Source of the DNA: Acanthamoeba sp. SK_2022b
Taxonomy: Eukaryota; Discosea; Longamoebia; Acanthamoebidae
Direction: 5' to 3'
NCBI GenBank assembly: GCA_027943245.1
Contig: JANDJZ010000064.1
Coordinates: forward strand, 1 to 64,000
Length of the DNA stretch: 64,000 bases
Shown here: piece by piece, positions 5,993 through 49,676 of the stretch
Position numbering within the stretch: position 1 is the stretch's first letter
Layout of the letters: every line of letters starts with the position of its first letter
Made by a program: the position numbers and the translations under genes
Notes under the pieces: model-generated
The model's input: the letters and a program-made list of their open reading frames with translations, nothing else
The model's database searches: none
What the model was told of the DNA's origin: nothing

Positions 5993-8122
5993 ATGAGCAT
6001 TTTGGGCAAGGTTAAGCACAGTACGTTGAAGTCTCCTTAGTGAGACTGGCGTTCTTTCCTCGCGAAATGCTCACTTTCAAATTGTGGGGCTGCCCCAGGG
6101 CTGCTTGATGAGATGCTGGGAAGCGTCCGTGAGGACGCCGATGATAACGACTGGCGTGTGCTCCTCGTCGACAAGGAGAGCATGAAGATCCTTTCTGCCT
6201 CTTGTCGCCTCTTCGATGTCATGGAGAAGGGCATCTCTGGTGCGCTGATTTATTTCCCTCGCAGAGATGGGCCGCAGCCCATTAGGTGGGGGGGGGGATC
6301 AAATTGTGCGGCATTGGTCTCAAGGCAAGTCAACGATGGCGTGCAGTCGTGGAGGACGTCGCGGTCAACCGGCAGCCGCTTTCCAAGCTGGAGGCCATCT
6401 ACTTCCTGTCGCCCGTGGCCGAGTCGGTGGACGCGCTCATCCGCGACTTTGACCCTGAGGTCAAGAAGCGGCTCATGTATGCCGCTGTTCACATCTTTTT
6501 CACCTCGAGTACGAGCCCTCTTGCCTTCTTCTTCTCTCTTGCGTGCGTTGGTGCACCAAAGCGCCTGCCTTCTGAACACCGTGACACGATCATCTCCAGA
6601 GCTGCCCAGCAAGCTGGCGGACAAGATCAAGCGCGCCAAGGTGTCCTCCAAGATTCGCACTCTCCGCGAGCTCAACATCGACTTCCTGGGTGCGCACTCT
6701 GCTCCCTCCTTCCCCCTCATTTGTGTGTGACTCGGCTCACGCAATCGACCCCTCCCCGTCTCGCACAGCTCCCGAGTCGCGCGCGTTCCATTTGGGAATG
6801 GACGACGCCATGGGCAGCCTCTTCGGTGGCCAGGGCAGCGCACAGGAGACCCAGCGCACCATGGGCCGTAAGGTTTGTCTCTCTCTCTCTCTCTCTCTTG
6901 AATGCCTCGTTGCCTCTTGCCCAGTGTCCGCGCGCATCGTTATAACGCTGGGTGTTCTCCCTTGTGTACGTTCGTCGTGTTGCGTTTCTCAATGATGCAG
7001 TTGGCTGCCGTGTTCACCACGCTGGGCGAATTGCCGTACATCCGCTACGCTCGCACGCCAGTGGCCACCACCCTCGCCGCCGCCACACAGGACGCGCTCG
7101 ACGAGCTCAGCGCCGAGGACAAGGCCCTCCTCAAGGCCGGAGACAACCGACCCACGCTCCTCATCCTCGACCGCTCCATCGACACCTTGGCTCCGGTGCT
7201 CCACGAGTTCACCTACCAAGGTGCGTGGCTCCCCTCCCTTCCCCGGCCACACAGAGGGCATTTTTGTTTAATTTAATTATTTCCAAACATTTGTTTTATT
7301 ATTTTTTTTTTTGAAAAAAAAATGCCGTGTGTTGTAATTGCGCAGCGATGATCTACGATCTGTGCGAGGTGGACAAGGAGTGCACGTACAAGTACAAGTA
7401 CAACAACGGCGGGAAGGAGATCACCAAGGAGGTCCTCCTCGACGAATACGACTTTCTCTGGCCCAAGCTGCGTCACATGCACATCGCCGATTGCATCAAC
7501 AAGGTAAATCATCTCCTCCTCGTCTCGTTCGTCGCTCGTTCATTGCACTCTTCATCTGGTTAACGTAATTACCTGTCGGTCCACGCGAATCTCTAGGTGA
7601 TCGATGACTTCAACGCGTTCCTGAAGACCAACAAGGCCGTGAACCTCAAGTCGGCGTCGTCCAAGAAGGGCGTGGCTTCGCTCCGGGAGATGACCGCGGC
7701 GATGAAGGAGCTGCCTCAGTTCCAGGACACCTTTGCCAAGGTCTGTCTCCCCCCACACCTCCGCTCTCACACTTGTCGCTTCGATGGCGTGAGGTGGGCC
7801 ATGACTGACAACGGTCCGCGCCATGCGTGTCGACCACGTCACCAGTACTCGCTGCACATCCGACTGGCGGGCGAGTGCATGGAGAAGTACCGCGGACAGG
7901 AGCTCGAGCGGCTCGCCATGGTCGAGCAGGACCTGGCCACGGGAGTGTCGGCCGAGGGCGGCAAGGTCAAGAAGGACAAGGTGCTGGCCGCCCTCGAGGA
8001 GATCCTCACCGACGACTCGGTCCCCTCGGCCAACAAGACGCGCCTCCTCATGATCTACCTCACCACCGAGGGCGCTCAGCCTTCCGATAGAGTACGCCGT
8101 GTCCCACCCTCACACAACACAC

Positions 8123-8173
<51 letters not shown>

Positions 8174-8602
8174 CGACGGCAACTGATGTGTGGATGGCCA
8201 AAAGAACTTTGCGAAGCTGCTGGAGAAGGCCCACCTGGGCAGCTCGGAGAGGCAGCTGGTGGAGAACCTGGCCAACCTGCGCAGCACCCTCGACGAGATG
8301 GCCGAGGCCGAGATCCAGCAGTGGGAGAAGAAGAGCGGCAAGAAGAACAAGAGCGAGGAGGTCCCCTACGCCGTCTCCCGCTACGTGCCCGTGGTCAAGC
8401 GTCTCGTCGAGAGCCTGCTCGAGGACCAGCTGCCTGCCGCAGAGTTCCCCTACTACGGCGACGAGCCCCGCGGCGGTGCGGCCAAGGACACCAGGAAGAA
8501 GGCCACCTCCCTCAAGACCCAGACCAGGGTGCGGACCACCAAGGGCAAGGACCGAGTCGACGGCGATGCGGTTCGTATTCCAACTCCTCCTCCTCCTCCT
8601 CG

Positions 8603-8636
<34 letters not shown>

Positions 8637-8779
8637 CCATCTCACCGCGGGGTGTGCTCCTTGCGCTTGCGCTGTGTACACAGGAGGACCTGGGTCCCAA
8701 GGTCATCGTCTTCATCGCTGGTGGCATCACTCACTCCGAAATCCGTTCGGCCTACCAACTGCTCGACAAGAGGTACGCA

Positions 8780-8876
<97 letters not shown>

Positions 8877-9105
8877 GCACCTCGCTCCAGTGCTTGTGCG
8901 CGAGTCGGTGAGCTCGTCCATGGCTAAACGCTGAATGTGCGTTTGGCTCGCCGGCAGGGAGGTGATCATCGGAGGCACGTCCATCTTGACCCCACACAAG
9001 TTCACCTCGCGCCTGGCGTCGCTCTCGGGCGGCAAGCAGCCCCGCCGCAACGCGGACGACCTCGAAGTGGGCGACGCCAGCTCCTCCGACGAGTCGAGCG
9101 ACTAA
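5993..9105 (+). CDS. Sec1/Munc18 (SM) family protein, syntaxin-binding
   Basis: SM proteins clasp syntaxins and promote SNARE-driven vesicle fusion at the plasma membrane. Exon 1 gives MSILGKVKHRLLDEML, followed by the domain-1 strand WRVLLVDKESMKILSASC. Next come VVEDV, EAIYFLSPVAESV, and RPTLLILDRSIDTLAPVLHEFTYQ, which is the SM signature. The helical domain-3 exons include KKGVASLREMTAAMKELPQF and LHIRLAGECM. The end, KVIVFIAGGITHSEIRSAYQL, GGTSILTPHKF and an acidic DDLEVGDASSSDESSD, is also typical. About ten introns separate the exons. The intron after GIS runs from 6240 to the acceptor just before 6337, which keeps the frame into VVEDV. The start ATG at 5993 matches the family N-terminus. 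An AATAAA lies at 9194. The Sec1/Munc18-1 subgroup is more likely than Vps45, Sly1 or Vps33, but this was not tested by tree. Confidence 0.93.
8111..8172. repeat. (CA)n microsatellite
   Basis: In an intron of the Sec1 gene, between exons ending GAQPSDR and starting KNFAKLLEKAH. Confidence 0.95.
8602..8636. repeat. (TTG)n microsatellite
   Basis: Trinucleotide run in an intron of the Sec1 gene before the EDLGPKVIVFIAGG exon. Confidence 0.95.
8782..8874. repeat. Compound (CT)n(GT)n microsatellite
   Basis: CT run followed directly by a long GT run in the last Sec1 intron, shortly after the donor that follows YQLLDKR. Confidence 0.95.
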
Positions 9106-13954: not shown

Positions 13955-16900
13955 TCACACGGCCACTACACGTGCCGCTGTCCGGACACTCTCCACGTCG
14001 AGGTTGTACTGCACGAGCCGCAGCGCTTCGTCGTCGTTGTCGTCATCTGCACCGTCCTCTCCGTCGCTTTCGCTACCGGAGCTGCTGCTGGAGGTGGTGT
14101 CGTCAGCGCTCGAAGCCGTGGAAGAGTCCCCCGCCACGGATTGTAGAAGCCTTCGCCAACGGCTCGCCCTGGCGTGCTCCTCATCTCCCTGCTTCGGTTG
14201 GCCGTCGCAGCTGCCACTCTCGGCCAGACTCGCCCTTTGTTGCTGTGGCGGTGGCGATGGTCGGAGCTGGGCGAGCAGGGTGTCGAGGGCCCGCACGATC
14301 TCGGTGAAGTTGGGCCGACACTCGGGGTCCGTGGCCAGGCACTGCGCCATCAGGTCGGCGAGGCTGCGGGGGCAGTCCTTGGGTATGGCCAGCTGCCCTC
14401 CGCCGGCGATCTGAGACCAAACCACACAACACAAGAGCCAGCCAGTCAGCCAGCCAGCACTCACCCCCTGGGAAGGGAGGGGAGGGAGATGGAGAGGGAG
14501 AGTGGGGGCACCCGAAGGGCAGCCTGGAGAGGAGGCAGGTCGTCCCACGGCTGCTGGCGCGTCCACATCTCCCACAAAAAGACCTGTAGGAGCATGTGGT
14601 CGTGGTAAAGGGAGGGCTGAGCACAGGTGACTCGCGCGATGTGGTGAGCTGGAAGGGATGCGGTACCCCAAAGGAGTAGGCGTCGGTCTTGTTGCTGTAG
14701 GTGCCCGAGTGGATGGACTCGGGGCTCATCCACTTGACCGCGCCGACGCTGCTGTTGGTGTAGTTGCGCAGCGACGCGGTCACGCCGGCGACCATCCGCG
14801 AGAGGCCCAGATCGCTGATCTTGCCCGTGTAGTTCTCGCCCACGAGCACGTTGCGCGCGGCGATGTCTCGGTGGATGACCTGTTGATGCGATTCCACGCG
14901 ATGTGATGTGCATCGGTTCATTCGAGAAACACTCCGCGCCGCGAGACGTGGGGGGGGGAACGTGTGGGGCGTGCGTACATTCTCCGAATGGAGGTGGAGG
15001 ATGCCGCAGGCAGCGTCGCGAGCCAGCTTCACGATGACCTCCAGCGGCAGCTTCTTTCTCTGGAGGAAGATGGCAGGGGAGGTTGGTACATCAGCTGACG
15101 GTCGTCCATCGGAGTGGAGCAAGGGAAGGGGGGGGGAGAGGGAGGTGGCCTAACGACTTGTTACCTTCTTGATGAGGAGGTCGTAGACGCTGCCGTTCTG
15201 GACCCATTCGGTGACGAGACACAGTTTGGAGCCCACCGTCACGGCGCCAAAGAAGCAGGCTGCCCCCCCCCCCCAAGGACAACGTTCAGAGCCAAGTGAC
15301 AGAGGGACAGCAGGCAAAGTGTGTGTGTGCGTGGCGGAGGGAGGTGCTGGGCGAGAAGACGCACTGCAGTTGGGGTGGTGGCCCAGCGCCTGCATCAACG
15401 CCGCTTCTCTGCGGAACTCCTTGATCAGCAGCGCCCTCTGCTCGGGGTCTGTGCACAGAGACGACGTTGGCCACACGACAAAAGAATGAAAATTAAAAAC
15501 AATTAAATAATTATATAGATAAAAAGCAAAGAACGAAGGCGAAAGGGGGGGGGGCAAGAACGAAGAGGCGATACCGTCGGAGGGCATGAGTTTGAGCTCC
15601 TTGATGGCGCAGTCGACGCCGCGCCACTTGCCCTTGTACACGCGCCCGAACATGCCGCTGGAGATGATGCCCTTCTCCTCGTCCCACTCGAGCTCCTCGA
15701 TCGCCAGCTCCCTGTGCCTGCGCACGAGCGCGTCCAGTCGGTAGTCCTCGTCCAACTTTCTCTGCCGTCGCGCCAGCTCGTCCTTCTGTTGTGCCTTCTG
15801 ATGCGCCTCCTCCTGCTGCTGTGGCCGTCGAGATTCGAGCTTGACCGGCCGCACGGTCGGCGCTTCGCTCTTCCTCTTCTCGTGCGTGATGGTCCACCTC
15901 CTCCTCCTCCGCGCGATGCTGCCCGCCGCGTCTGCAGTCGCCGCCGGGAGGTCATGATCGCCGCTCTCCCTGCCCTCGCTCCTGCTCTTGCGTCGCCCCT
16001 TCTTCTGCTTCTTCTTGAGCATCTTCAGCCTGTGCTCCAGCGTCGTCGTCGAGCCGTCGTCTATGCTCCGTGTCGTGGCCGCACCCGTGATCGAGACGCG
16101 CACGTAGTCCTCGCGCTCATCTTCCTCCTCCTCCTCCTCCTCCTCCGCGGCCTTGCTTCGCCGGTGCACGATTCGGTCGATCGCGCTCTTGCTCCGCTTT
16201 CGGGCAATGCGCACCGACCGAAGCGCACTGCCTGCCAGGCCGCCGCCGCCGCCGCCGCGCGCCCGATCTCCGCCAGCAGACGCATCGCGGCTGCCGGTCG
16301 CCTTCTTGGTGGCCACCTCGCCTTGCTCGTCGCCTCCGGTTGACGCGTCGAGCGAGGGCGCCGTAGTCGATGGCCGGGCGTCGATGGCGTCGGTGCCCAG
16401 GTGCGCCTCGTCCCCTCCGGGCCGGAGCTGCGCCATGGCGTGGGCCACGGGGAGCGACGTGAGCTCATGAACCAGGGCCTCGTTGTGGTGGAGCGTCTTG
16501 ACCAGCCGGCGAGCGTGGTACTTGGTCAAGCGAAAGTCGCACGTCAGCTCCTGTGCGGAAGTGGTGAGTTCGTGGGAGGCCTGGCGTGTGTAGTGTGAGG
16601 GAGGTGGAGCCCGCACCTCTTCGGTCATAGCGGAGAGGTCGTCGAGCAGGATCTCCTGGGCCAGGAAGTGGGGCCAGTACTTGACCAGCTGCAGCTCGCG
16701 CAGGAGACAGTACAGCCGCACGTCGCCAGAGGCCACGACCTCGCGTCGCTCCGTCTCGGTGGTGAAGAGCGAGAAGGAGGTCAGCGACTGCGACGATGAC
16801 AAAGTCGACGACAAGCTCGTCGACACGAAAGCCGAAGACGACCGACGGGACGACAGAGGCGAAGACGATGCAGACTTGGACGTCGCGGCAGGCGTCGCCT

Positions 16901-31601: not shown

Positions 31602-34600
31602 TAAATTTTATTTATTTCAGGCCGCGCAAGCCGAAGCCAAAGCGGCGGAACAAGCGGCTGAGGCGGCTGAGGAGCTGGAGCCTACCTCTGCGGCCGTAGA
31701 GTCTCAGCCTGCCGCTCCTGCGGCTGCCGCTGTCTCAGAGCCTGCGCCCGCTGCGCCCGCGCCAGTCGCTGCGCCTGCACCGGTGGCCAAGGAGAGTAAA
31801 CCGGCGTTCTTCGTGCCCGTCGTGAGGCTACCCGAGGTCGAGAAACAGCGCCAGGAGCTTCCCATCTACATGGAGGAGCAACGGATCATGGAGGGCATCA
31901 AGGAGAACGACGTCGTCGTCATTTGCGGTGGTACGTATCGAGCGCTGCTGTTGCGAGAGTACGAGGAGCTGATGACCATTGCGTGCTTACGTTCCTTGTT
32001 TATCTCGCATGCAGAGACGGGATCGGGTAAGACTACACAGGTGCCCCAGTTCCTGTATGAAGCCGGCTACGGTTGCCCTGGCTCTGGTACCAGGCGCCTT
32101 CCCGGGCGTTGTCCGTTGTCTCTGTTCTAGTGTGCCGTCTCCGCCGTCGAATGAAATGGCCGACTGACTCAAGTGTTTGTGCTGCGCAGACAATCCCGGC
32201 ATGGTGGCCGTCACTCAGCCTCGTCGTGTGGCCGCGGTCAGTATGGCCCAGCGCGTGGCGCACGAAATCAACGCCGAAAACAAGTCGCTCGTCTCTTACC
32301 AGGTGCGCACGCATCCCTCGGCAATGTCGATGCGTGGTGGGCATGTGTGGCCTCGTGAGTCTTATGCTCACAACTCCGCAATCGATAGATTCGATACGAC
32401 TCCACGGTCAGCAACGACACTCGCATCAAGTTCATGACCGACGGTATCCTGCTCAAGGAGATCCAGGTACAGCACAAGCTAATCTCCACCGTCTTTAATG
32501 AAAACCACGCTCATAGCGTGTCCATCTCTTCACCAGGGTGATTTCCTCATGAAGCGGTACTCCGTCATCATCATCGACGAAGCCCACGAGCGCAACCTCA
32601 ACACCGACATCCTCATCGGTCTCCTCTCGCGCATCGTGCCCCTGCGCGCTCAACTCGCCCGCGAGCACAAGCAGAAGCTCAAACAGAATCCCTCTGCCAT
32701 CCCGACGCAGGACATTATCAGGCCGCTCAAGCTGGTAAGCAGTCCACCGCACGCGCGTGTCGCGTCGTGCCATGCGTTCGTGGCCCGTCCCTACGGTTCT
32801 AACCCAAAGATCGACACTGCGCGACTCAGGTGATCATGTCCGCCACGCTGCGCGTGAGCGATTTTGTCGACAATGCCAAGCTGTTCCCCACGCCGCCGCC
32901 CGTGATCAGCGTCGACGCGCGCCAGTTCCCCGTCACCGTCCACTTCAACCGACGCACCGTCTTGGGCGACTACATCGGCGAGGCCTACAAGAAGGTCTGC
33001 AAGATCCATCAGAAGCTGCCCCAAGGAGGTATCATTCACTGTGGCCCATCGCCCCTTCTTTCTCCGCGGGCTCTGTTCTCACGTCGAGGCCACGGCGCGT
33101 GCGTGGCGCGGGCGCAGGCGTGCTGGTGTTCCTGACCGGCCAGCAGGAGATCGAGGTGCTGTGCCGCAAGCTGCGCGCTGCCTATCCGCCGCACATGGAG
33201 CGGAGAAAGAAGCGGCCGTCGATCCTCGTCGACGAAGAGCCCGAGGCCGAGAACGGCAAGGCCAAGGAGAAGAAGGCGAAGAAGGAGGACGGCACGGGCG
33301 AGAAGGACAAGGCCACGAAGAAGGAGGAGGAAGACGACATGGAAGTCGAGAAGAAGGAGGAGAAGGAGGAGGAGGAGAAGAAGGAGACGGAGGGAAGCGA
33401 GACGACCAAGAAGACCGAAGAGGGAGCGGAAGCGAAAGAGGAACAGGACGACGACGAAGAGCAGGACACAATCGGACCGCTATGGGTCCTCCCCCTCTAC
33501 TCAGCGCTGCCCACCAAGCAGCAGCTGCAAGTGTTCGAGCCGCCGCCTGCTGTACGCCTCCCCCCTTGCCCAACCTCTTTTTATTATTATTATTATTTGG
33601 TCATTTGATTTTAATTAGTTTTTTATATAGAAAAATAATAATAAAAAAAGAAATACATACGGAATGCGCATTCGCTCATCCATACTTGTACTCGACGTGT
33701 AGGGCTATCGCCTGGTCGTGGTGGCCACCAACGTGGCTGAGACCTCGCTGACCATCCCCGGCATCAAGTACGTCGTGGACTCTGGCCGAGCCAAGGAGGT
33801 ATGAATCAACCCCACACGCTTGCCCACTGCTCGGAGAGGACAACCCATCGCCCCATGCGGATCCTCACAGTCGCGGCTGTGCTGCAGAGAGTGTACGAGC
33901 GAGCGTCGGGCATGTCGTCATACGTGGTCCAATGGGAGTCGCAAGCCTCTGCCAATCAGGTGCGCCCCCCCCTCATCCTTCCCTGTGGGTTGCATTCACG
34001 CTCACCACACTGTGTTGTGCAGAGGGCGGGTCGTGCTGGCCGTACCGGTCCGGGTCATTGCTACCGCCTCTTCTCATCGGCCGTGTTCAACGACCAGTTC
34101 CAGCAGTTCTCGGACCCCGAGATCAGTCGGATCCCGATCGAGGGTAGCGCTCTCCCCTCCAACTCTAGTTATTATTTGTTTATTTATTATAATATTATTA
34201 TTATTATTTGTCGTTGTTGTTATTAATTGTTGTCCAACAAATCGCAGGCGTGGTGCTGCAGATGAAGAGCATGGGCATCGATAAGGTCGTCTCGTTCCCT
34301 TTCCCCACGCCCCCCGACATGATCGGGTTGAAGGAAGCCCACAAGGTGCGCCACAAGCTCGACGAACGCTTTTCGTCAGACTCGCCGACGTGTCGTGCTG
34401 ACGCTCACTCTTCGATCATTCTTCTTCTTCTTGTTACTGGCGCGTAGACTCTGTCCTATCTGGGCGCGCTGGACAAGGACAATCGACTCACCCCGCTTGG
34501 TCGTTCGCTCGCCACCTTCCCCGTTGCTCCACGCTACGCCAAGATGTATGCCTCGTCTTCTCCCTTTACTTGTCGCGAGATCAGCGATGGGCTCATCTCC

Positions 34601-34604
34601 TGTG

Positions 34605-34679
<75 letters not shown>

Positions 34680-36479
34680 AACAGGCTCGTGCTCGGTCAT
34701 CAGGGCGGCTGCCTGCCCTATGTGATCGCTCTCGTAGCAGCGCTCTCCGTTGACGACCCCCTGTTGCGGCAGTCCCTGCACGAGGAGAAGGACGACGACG
34801 AAAAAGGTGACCTTACCTCCCCCCACACACACACCCTCGCCCTGGTGCCCCTGTCTTGTGCTAGACTAGGGACGTCCCGCGTGTCCCGACGCTCATCTCC
34901 CGCGCTCGGTGGTCACCGCAGAGGAGAAGAGCAAGGCGGAGTTGCAGATGGAGGAGCAGGAGCGGGAGCAGCGCACGAAGCGGCGCGCGGCCATCATCTC
35001 CGTGCACAACATATGGGCCCATCCGGCCAGCGACCTCCTCGTCATCCTCAGGTACCGGGCCCTCGTTCGGTGGTCGCGACACGACGCGTGATGCTGAGTG
35101 GTCGGTTTTTGGCTCACCTCAGGGCCATCGGCGCCTACGAGTACGGCGGCGCCACCGAGAAGTTCTGCGAGAAGCACTTCCTCAACGCCAAGGTGGGCAC
35201 ACTTGCCGCCCGCACGCCCTGATTCCCTATCTATTTTTATTTTTATTTTTTAATTTTTATTTTATTGTACATACTCAGTAATATGCATTATTTATTGATT
35301 TCTTGGTTTTACGTTACAAACGTAAAAATAGATCATGAAGGAGATCCATCAGCTGCGCGAGCAGTTGACGTATCTCGTCAACACGGTCTACCCGCAAGAC
35401 GAGCCCATCGCCATGGACCCCAACCTGGAGCCGCCCACCCCTGACCAGGTGCCCCTCTCCCCCCTCTCATCCTCGCTCGCACTTGTGCCATCCCGGCTGA
35501 CTCGGTGCCCCTTCCCTCTCTCGCCCCAATCGCCTGCGTGCTTTTAGGAGCTGCTTCTGCGCCAAGTGATCACGGCGGGCCTGGTCGACCAGGTGGCGCG
35601 GCTGCATACGGACAGGAGCGAGATGGGATACATCAACGAGGCCAAGGCACCTCACCTTCTCCTCTTCGTTGCTCCTCTCCTCTCCTCTCCTCTCCCCCTG
35701 GGTCGTGCTAACACGCCATCGCACTCCCAAATGACAACCGCAGGCTCAGAAGCACTTCCAGTACATGACGGTCAAAACCAACGAGATCGTGTACGTGCAC
35801 CCGTCATCGTTCCTCTTCGGCCAGCACGAGGAGTACGTCGTGTACAGGGAGCTGGTGCAGACCAAGAAGACCTACATGAAGGGCGTCACCGCGATCCACC
35901 CGTCGTGGCTGTGTTCCCTCGGCACGGCGCTCTGCCACCTCTCCAAACCGCTCGAGACCCCGCCCCCTCGGTTCGCGCCCCTCCCCTCCTCTCCCCTCCC
36001 CCATCACACGCACCCCTCGATCTCCTCCCCGGCGCTGGCATTGCCCCCCCCCCTCCAATCCTACTCGTCGAGTCCTGACCTTGGCCGGCGCACTTCGCCT
36101 TGGCAGATACGACGAGGAGTCGGACACGATTCGATGCTTCGTATCGCCCACGTACGGCCCCAACGCGTGGACTCTGCCGGTGCAGGAGGTGCGCGGTGGA
36201 CGCTCTCCCCTCTTCCCCCCCCCCAAGGGATACGTCGGGTGGCTGCAAGGGTAGTCGCTGATCTCGTGTTGGTCGCGTGGTGGCCTGGTTTGGGGGGGGG
36301 GCAGGCGGATATGGAGGAGGGCGTAGAGCGGTACAAGTACTTCATGCGCTTCCTTCTCGAAGGACAGATCATTCCCTCTCTCCGAGCTCTGCGTGTACGT
36401 TCCTACGACGAGCTTCGCCTTTCTGCTACAACTACTTCTTGGACCTGGCCGACGAGCAATCTCACCGTTGGGTTCTCTT

Positions 36480-36544
<65 letters not shown>

Positions 36545-36865
36545 TTTAATAGGAGAACCTGTCTGGCCGACCCTCGTTGATCACGACGCCAACCACCACG
36601 CAGCACAAGATACTGGCATTCCTCCAGACGCTCGGCGCCAACAAGATATACAACAGGAGGACGCTGATGGCCAAACTGTACGTTGAGAGCCATTCACCGA
36701 TTGGGGAGCCTAGGGCCACCACCACACTCATCCCATAACGTCGCACGCAGTAAAACGCAGCCCAAGTTCTTGCTGGCCGAGATGAAGCTGTGGGTGAACC
36801 TCCAAACGCACGAGCTTCTCGAGCAGCTGTGGAGCAAGCTCACCCTCAACGCCAACCGAAAGTGA
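30233..36865 (+). CDS. DEAH-box RNA helicase, DHX37/Dhr1 (Ecm16) type
   Basis: DHX37/Dhr1 releases U3 snoRNA from the pre-ribosome during small-subunit maturation in the nucleolus. A basic N-terminal region ([19 protein letters not shown]...) contains [15 protein letters not shown] and [11 protein letters not shown], both usual in this subfamily. Helicase motifs: [19 protein letters not shown] (I), [18 protein letters not shown] (Ia), [29 protein letters not shown] (II), [10 protein letters not shown] (III), [14 protein letters not shown] (IV), [24 protein letters not shown] (V) and [16 protein letters not shown] (VI). The HA2/OB part follows, with [29 protein letters not shown] and [20 protein letters not shown] Lys/Glu-rich acidic insert (33230-33470) sits between the RecA domains, where DHX37 proteins carry an insertion. 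About twenty exons. The stop is at 36863-36865. Confidence 0.95.
31557..31602. repeat. (TTA)n microsatellite
   Basis: In a DHX37 intron, just upstream of the TTTATTTCAG acceptor. Confidence 0.95.
34605..34675. repeat. (CA)n microsatellite
   Basis: About 35 CA units in the DHX37 intron between APRYAKM and [13 protein letters not shown]. Confidence 0.95.
36482..36543. repeat. (GT)n microsatellite
   Basis: About 31 GT units in the DHX37 intron before [13 protein letters not shown]. Confidence 0.95.
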
Positions 36866-48804: not shown

Positions 48805-49676
48805 TTAGAACAGAGAGCAGCCACCCTTGGCCTTCTTCCTCTTGGAGAAGAGGACCGATTTGACGGCATCGTCGAAAACCGTCTTGAGGTTCTCACCTGA
48901 AAAGGGCCGTGAGGAGGGGGAGAGATGAAGCGAAAAATCGACATTCGTACCAGTAAAGGCAGAGCACTCAATGAACTTGACGGCCTTGAGCTTCCTGGCG
49001 AGCTCCTCGCCCTCCTCGTGCGTGACAGGGCGTTGACCCTGGCCCTTGAGCTTCTCGAGGGTGAGGTTGTCGTTCCTCAGATCGAGCTTGGTGCCAACGA
49101 CGATGAGGGGCACATTGGGGCAGAAGTGGTTGACCTCGGGGAACCACTTGGAGGTCACGTTCTCGAAAGAGACGGGGTTCACCACCGAGAAGCACACCAA
49201 GAACACGTTGGCATTGGCATAGCTGTGCGCCCATTCAGTCAGATGATTTCTCGCCTTAAGTGATGAAGAATTTTTGATGGATGTTTATGGACGAAAGCAC
49301 GCACCTGAGGGGACGCAGACGATCATACTCCTCCTGGCCGGCAGTATCCCACAGACCGAGCTCGATGGTTTCCTCGCCGGCAGTCAGGTTGACGACATAA
49401 TTATCGAAGACGGTAGGCACATACCTGGGGGGGGGGGGTTAGTTGGCTAATCATTCAAAGGGAAACGCATCAAGTCGGCTCAACGCACTCTGTAAGGTTA
49501 AAAAAAGGGAAGAGGTCAGCGGCAGGCTACAAAACATAATAAAATGGCTCAAAATTAGGAAGAAGATGAGGCCCAGTACCTTCGGGGAAGCGGTTGTTGG
49601 CATACGAGATGAGGAGGCACGTCTTACCGACAGCACCGTCGCCTACGACGACCAGCTTGATGGACTTGGTGGCCAT
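48805..49676 (-). CDS. Rac-type Rho GTPase
   Basis: Rho GTPases switch actin dynamics on and off at the membrane. Start [19 protein letters not shown] (P-loop), then [12 protein letters not shown]. After the intron region: [11 protein letters not shown] (switch I, effector loop), [19 protein letters not shown] (switch II), GTKLDLR, ECSAFTG and the insert helix [19 protein letters not shown]. The polybasic end [12 protein letters not shown] is a CaaX box with F at X, which favours geranylgeranylation. Conservation demands one residue (usually E) between FPE and YVPT. Exon 1 ends with G at 49580 and the next large exon begins at 49424 with G, leaving one base missing. An A at 49489, flanked by TTAACCTTACAG and GTGCGTTGAG, supplies it as a single-nucleotide exon and gives FPEEYVPT. 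Confidence 0.95.
49489..49489 (-). other. Candidate single-nucleotide exon of the Rac gene
   Basis: Intron 1 would run 49579-49490 (GTACTGGG to TTACAG) and intron 2 49488-49425 (GTGCGTTG to the C-run and CAG). The A completes codon GAG (Glu) of FPEEYVPT. Other acceptor choices in the interval shift the frame or meet a stop. Confidence 0.7.

Follow-up and report, generated by a model that had tools for sequence, protein, structure and literature searches.

We analysed a window of 64,000 nucleotides (the whole stretch of DNA under study), which belongs to contig C797 in an assembly of 44.9 Mb and 1129 contigs. A Rac-family GTPase gene occupies positions 49676 to 48805 of its minus strand and, as read directly and recomputed, has five exons if a candidate exon of one nucleotide is counted. 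Exon 1 (49580..49676, 97 nt), delimited by sequence and homology, starts at the ATG and extends one base into codon 33; it encodes 32 residues plus a G and ends in TTC CCC GAA G, the last G being position 49580. Intron 1 (49490..49579, 90 nt; GTACTGGG...CTTTTTTTAACCTTACAG) starts with GTACTGGG at 49579, and its acceptor, TTTTTTTAACCTTACAG, ends at 49490. The candidate exon 2 (49489..49489) is a single A that sits between acceptor and donor as CTTTTTTTAACCTTACAG/A/GTGCGTTG and would supply codon 33 with its middle base (GAG, Glu), a residue that we take to be Glu31 in human Rac1 numbering. Intron 2 (49425..49488, 64 nt) reaches from its donor GTGCGTTG, which begins at 49488, to an end composed of CTAA, twelve C and AG. 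Exon 3 (49305..49424, 120 nt) starts with G TAT GTG CCT and encodes the switch I sequence YVPTVFDNY and the DTAGQ motif. It is followed by intron 3 (49223..49304, 82 nt; GTGCGTGC...GCGCACAG), exon 4 (48951..49222, 272 nt), intron 4 (48897..48950, 54 nt; GTACGAAT...CCTTTTCAG) and exon 5 (48805..48896), which includes the stop codon TAA and a CAAX-type end. The run of twelve C (49438-49427, minus strand) directly abuts the exon 3 acceptor, and its length is likely to vary among strains or assemblies.

With the exons joined, the product has 193 residues and the C-terminus CSLF. Judged from its sequence it is a Rac/Rho GTPase with a CAAX-type C-terminus, prenylation being predicted at most. The best matches among solved structures were 4mit (Rho family GTPase, E 9.6e-78) and Rac1 chains, and the two alignments shown for these ran through switch I with no gap, while NCBIfam returned the general small_GTP domain only. 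Elsewhere in the window, we found exons that match Sec1 (7597-8931, plus strand), protein kinase (14184-15149, minus strand) and the DEAH-helicase C-terminal domains HA2_C and OB_NTP_bind (34332-36577, plus strand).

Reading frame and splicing paths

The initial annotation had exon 1 stop after the G at 49580 and exon 3 begin with the G at 49424, with one base missing between them, and the sequence agrees with this base for base. Codon 33 receives its first base (G) from exon 1 and its last (G) from exon 3, and the middle base is absent from both. When exon 1 is joined straight to exon 3, the Rac frame is lost after FPE and a stop is met 13 codons on; skipping of the A at 49489 would thus leave a protein of 45 residues. 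Insertion of the A yields the codon GAG and the sequence FPE-E-YVPT.

We enumerated the splicing paths that connect exon 1 with exon 3 through one or two GT-AG introns (minimum length 30 nt), the inner exon being restricted to 1 to 60 nt and donors being taken from 49626 on. This gave 21 in-frame, stop-free paths, and the sequence FPE-[ED]-YVPT was obtained from one of them, the path through the A at 49489. The lone A between AG and GT that was proposed to make GAG and FPEEYVPT can thus be read directly and is unique among the 21 paths. Longer exons had been described as being of the wrong length, and indeed the other 20 paths did not give the conserved sequence. A single canonical intron was rejected, as its three in-frame paths included none with the conserved sequence. 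The TTAG acceptor near 49447 was also correctly said to meet TAA, the exon from 49446 reading G/CC AAC TAA. Allowing GC donors raised the number of paths to 68 and added one more length-keeping path with a one-nucleotide exon, which was discarded since it puts Val at codon 33.

Spliced alignment of the locus to P0001, the closest homologue among the matches listed, scored 904 with the one-nucleotide exon and 839 at best without it. The aligner was custom-written, accepted GT-AG introns only and charged a one-nucleotide exon nothing beyond the two intron penalties. Among 100 GTPase loci, of which some were redundant and some poorly aligned, it picked such an exon at 4, and all four were overlapping cuts of the Rac locus. 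When the aligner was forced to use no one-nucleotide exon, an artefactual "intron" of 42 nt appeared in the Rac locus.

Conservation of codon 33 and nearest relatives

A residue had been expected at this place in Rho GTPases, and Glu or Asp was present there in 245 of the 251 homologues listed (Glu in 139, Asp in 106, Thr in 1, Gln in 1, and no motif in 4). These homologues were pooled from three protein searches, one of which took a different Rac of this genome as its query; the 120 matches listed for the first search had Asp in 95, Glu in 24 and Thr in 1 at residue 33. With the outer bases fixed as G..G, Glu is obtained from A only, and Asp from no base.

The closest relative among the matches listed, P0001, is 95% identical to the Rac product, has 193 aa and reads FPEEYVPT. 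Its coding sequence is uninterrupted on contigs of up to 985 nt, so it is transcript-like, and we take this relative from another strain or species, of which the protein sequence alone is visible, as transcript-derived. Another Rac-like gene of the same genome, L004, has a predicted protein that shares 179 of 194 positions with cRac1B of A. castellanii Neff (P0140). The Rac genes of this genome are close to Acanthamoeba ones, and the organism would accordingly be described as Acanthamoeba-like.

None of the 120 matches listed for the full-length query was an Acanthamoeba-named protein of this Rac subtype. When exons 3-5 were used alone as the query, in search of a misbuilt annotation, the 120 matches listed again included no Acanthamoeba-named protein. 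The same protein database does contain cRac1B of A. castellanii Neff (P0140), a Rac of a different subtype. About one quarter of the proteins in these searches are named, candidates had 0.55-1.75 times the query length, and 120 of thousands of matches were listed; the lack of an Acanthamoeba-named match is thus weak evidence, which would fit a misannotation without showing it.

Splice-site strength and chance expectation

We collected training introns from 100 loci of the same genome, many of them overlapping, and obtained 215 distinct introns in GTPase genes; loci that scored 150 or less or were intronless and introns longer than 400 nt were left out. A margin test, which gives fair but imperfect intron boundaries, was passed by 155 of the 215, and removal of the three introns of Rac's own locus left 152. 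The median intron length was 90 nt (n=155). None of the 152 introns exceeded 400 nt, 134 were of at most 155 nt, 75 of at most 90 nt and 7 of at most 64 nt, so the sizes of the flanking introns (90 and 64 nt) are normal, as had been stated. The training donors preferred GTACGT, with GTGCGT less frequent, and the acceptors preferred CAG.

Compared with these 152 introns, the sites on either side of the A ranked at the 98.7th (acceptor, before it) and the 41st (donor, after it) percentiles. Both splice sites of the one-nucleotide exon are good by the standard of this genome. The outer sites ranked lower, with an ordinary exon 3 acceptor (33rd percentile) and a weak exon 1 donor (11th percentile). 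In the combined acceptor and donor score, the AG-A-GT site was the best of 398 AGNGT sites on both 64-kb strands. None of the 17 AGNGT sites inside the 152 training introns reached its score, and across the 100 loci this was reached by 4 of 1,532, all four being the same site in overlapping loci. Dinucleotide shuffles of the 155-nt stretch between exons 1 and 3 gave an equal-scoring AG-A-GT in 0 of 5,000 cases and, in a separate run, in 1 of 60,000; a looser test, which asked for an exon A between two sites of 5 bits or more each, gave 204 hits in 60,000 shuffles.

Each of the two introns also contains a branch-point candidate. In intron 1 this is CTGAC, with its A 27 nt before the one-nucleotide exon, and in intron 2 it is CTAAC, the A of which precedes exon 3 by 15 nt. 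Of the 152 introns, 26% have the pattern CTRAC near their end; among the early parts of 58 long introns, 1.7% contain it. In the 42 training introns with CTRAC in their last 60 nt, the distance to the acceptor ranged over 17-53 nt, and at 15 nt the intron 2 candidate is nearer to its acceptor than all of them.

Finally, a genome-wide search for a strict CAG-N-GTRCGT pattern, which misses the Rac site itself because the pyrimidine stretch of that site is interrupted, gave 10 sites against 13 in a reversed control. This lack of excess indicates that one-nucleotide exons are not a common class in this genome, and the Rac exon looks like an isolated case in it. The ten strong sites (including C624:125206, C624:32583, C609:14084 and seven others) are no more than candidates for additional one-nucleotide exons.

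Rac paralogues and intron positions

We examined the Rac-like paralogues with introns, which numbered 15 and had 46 distinct intron positions (introns of up to 300 nt). Three of these genes have an intron in the same Glu codon: L020 (contig C394) at phase 1, G/AG TAT, and L024 (C1110) and L028 (C1093) at phase 2 (GA/G and GA/A, respectively), and all three introns pass the margin test. If positions were random, the chance of sharing would be about 8% for each position and about 0.6% for both. The three paralogues are only 54-57% identical to the Rac gene of the window, and a tree (10 of its 23 inner branches open) placed the Rac protein with P0001 and other amoeba proteins, apart from L020, L024 and L028. 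The paralogue evidence is helpful and not decisive, since an assembly error, the main competing explanation, requires just one intron position.

The same genome also holds four intronless Rac-like genes (L001, L002, L003 and L004); L002 and L003, which do not differ in the 60 residues shown, may be recent copies. In a DNA search of the own genome, the matches listed besides the locus were pieces of two intronless Rac genes with 71-78% identity.

An orthologous locus was not found in viral_contigs, either with P0001 (13 stretches matched, none confirmed) or with Rac query A1 (32 stretches, none confirmed). In genome_contigs, Rac query A1 matched at least 581 stretches, of which at least 488 were confirmed relatives, and the best 80 were all titled bacterial or archaeal; none of these 80 loci entered the intron training set. 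Neither an orthologous genomic locus nor a second assembly of the Rac locus emerged from these searches, in which both collections may omit records very near the genome of the window. Eight Rho-like GTPase genes (L031-L038, 41-56% identical) were found on contigs filed as bacterial (Zetaproteobacteria, Deltaproteobacteria, Maricaulis, Marinicaulis and Robiginitomaculum), and either transfer to bacteria or binning contamination would account for them.

Interpretation of the locus and alternative explanations

The unique splicing path, the conserved residue, the strength of the sites and the intron positions of the paralogues all support the interpretation first given to the locus. On this evidence, an Acanthamoeba-like amoeba very probably has a Rac-family GTPase gene in which the A at 49489 is a constitutive single-nucleotide exon (probability of about 0.87). 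We regard this as by far the better explanation because the site around the A is both strong and fitting, a judgement that is not a formal posterior. The weak exon 1 donor (11th percentile) and the unusually close branch-point candidate of intron 2 (15 nt) count against it.

The main rival is that assembly or sequencing lost one base where exon 1 ends or exon 3 begins, so that a single intron of 155 nt is present and the AG-A-GT is coincidental. An intron of that length lies within the normal range (134 of 152 reach at most 155 nt), a sequencing error is plausible in the run of twelve C that precedes exon 3, and three paralogues have just one intron at this codon, at phase 1 or 2. However, the error would have to strike one of a few critical bases while the remainder of the 193-codon frame stays intact, and it would have to coincide with a chance AG-A-GT of a strength that was equalled once in 60,000 shuffles and by none of the 398 AGNGT sites compared. 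That chance site would moreover have to supply exactly the base demanded by the homologues. We therefore consider a one-base assembly error unlikely.

Far less probable is a single intron with a non-canonical end, shifted by one base on either side and so supplying the missing base. Such a shift restores the frame, leaves the protein unbroken and produces the same mRNA from either side, but the resulting codon is GGG (Gly), a residue found in none of the 247 motif-bearing homologues listed. It also requires a TA donor or a CA acceptor, the rarity of which cannot be gauged from training introns that are all GT-AG, and it would be incompatible with a cDNA reading GAAGAGTAT.

We give the same very low standing to a recent pseudogene, or to a frame rescued by ribosomal frameshifting or editing. 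The frame is indeed broken unless the A is counted; yet the remaining exons all stay open in the Rac frame, and the product is 95% identical to an expressed-looking relative. As for frameshifting, the codons after a -1 shift would read FPERYVPT, with the conserved residue lost, and no slippery site was seen on reading the sequence by eye.

The least probable reading takes the T at 49487 as the one-nucleotide exon, after a tandem AG and before a GC donor (ACAGAG/T/GC, giving FPEVYVPT): it turns up in the enumeration once GC donors are permitted and RhoA does have Val at this residue, but it needs the GC donor together with a weaker acceptor (22nd percentile), and Val was present in none of the 247 motif-bearing homologues listed.

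Comparison with known single-nucleotide exons

The initial annotation had named Arabidopsis APC11 as a precedent, which is real: its exon is a single A, essential to the frame, and was shown by cDNA and reporter constructs (PMC4674806). It is not the sole one, since VPS55 and CYP621A have been published too. As in Rac, the lone A of APC11 lies between AG and GT, is required for the frame and was overlooked by annotation; unlike Rac, it belongs to a plant gene for another protein and is backed by cDNA (PMC4674806), the Rac exon being proposed from genomic sequence. Microexons of one nucleotide in VPS55 and APC11 were confirmed by RNA-seq and RT-PCR across land plants; they resemble the Rac exon in their strong flanking splice sites and in the occurrence of gene copies with and without the exon, and differ in being conserved over many species, the Rac exon having been seen in one genome (PMC8831610). 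In Fusarium CYP621A, a one-nucleotide exon was reported from 20 orthologues, with 18 transcript reads aligned in two species (PMC12940212). That exon, too, supplies the second of the three bases of a conserved codon and is followed by a phase-two boundary, and it was likewise inferred from homology first, but it lies in a fungal P450 gene and has transcript reads (PMC12940212). A mitochondrial single-nucleotide exon has also been described in placozoan cox1 (PMC5436844).

Among the open-licence papers listed in our literature searches, we found no case of an amoebozoan single-nucleotide exon. The Rac exon most likely adds to a very rare published kind, known from plants and Fusarium. A. castellanii has 6.2 introns per gene (PMC4053784), and closely spaced introns may for this reason be likelier there than in most genomes. 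If the Rac exon is real, nuclear single-nucleotide exons would reach a third major eukaryotic group and a central signalling gene. The case is also a warning for annotation, no Acanthamoeba-named protein of this subtype having been among the matches listed.

Proposed splicing mechanism and origin

In the mechanism that we propose, each of the two short introns would be recognised by intron definition. With a single base between acceptor and donor, spliceosomes could hardly occupy both simultaneously, so the two introns would be removed one after the other. It is generally considered unlikely, as also in the discussion of the APC11 study (PMC4674806), that both sites of a one-nucleotide exon are recognised at once, and intron definition with stepwise removal is favoured. 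If intron 1 left first, for example, the joining of exon 1 to the A would create a normal-looking donor, ...GAAGA/GTGCGT, for intron 2. That each intron is short and comes with a separate donor, branch-point candidate and acceptor would fit stepwise removal. The mature mRNA would then read CCC GAA GAG TAT GTG and encode FPEEYVPT. A transcript containing the one-nucleotide exon is expected to read CCCGAAGAGTATGTG, and the contrary joins would read CCCGAAGGTATGTG or CCCGAAGGGTATGTG.

If the A were skipped, the frame would shift and Rac would be lost. Since the protein would be truncated at 45 residues, inclusion should be near-constitutive unless skipping is used as a control. As to its origin, the exon may have arisen from the phase 1 and phase 2 intron positions of one codon, which occur singly in the Rac paralogues and would both be present in this gene. 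The paralogues thereby suggest a concrete route by which such exons could originate, through two intron positions in one codon. We put forward only tentatively the fuller proposal that this is, as far as the open-licence literature searched shows, the first single-nucleotide exon of Amoebozoa, derived from both of the intron positions of its sister genes, and that it forms a stepwise-spliced switch I base with a possible role in the on/off control of Rac.

Recursive splicing offers a further comparison. Its ratchet sites are of the form AG/GT and correspond to exons of zero length. Like the Rac site, a ratchet site has an acceptor and a donor juxtaposed within an apparent single intron; unlike the Rac site, it keeps no base, whereas in Rac one A is kept and is essential to the frame. 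We therefore rejected a recursive zero-nucleotide site for Rac, as one A separates the AG from the GT. The authors of the APC11 study propose that the two introns around its exon are removed stepwise and mention recursive splicing (PMC4674806). A ratchet-like arrangement was found at the start of exon 3 (49426-49418, minus strand; AG/GTATGTG), where the acceptor abuts a donor-like GTATGT, and splicing at this donor-like sequence would leave out switch I.
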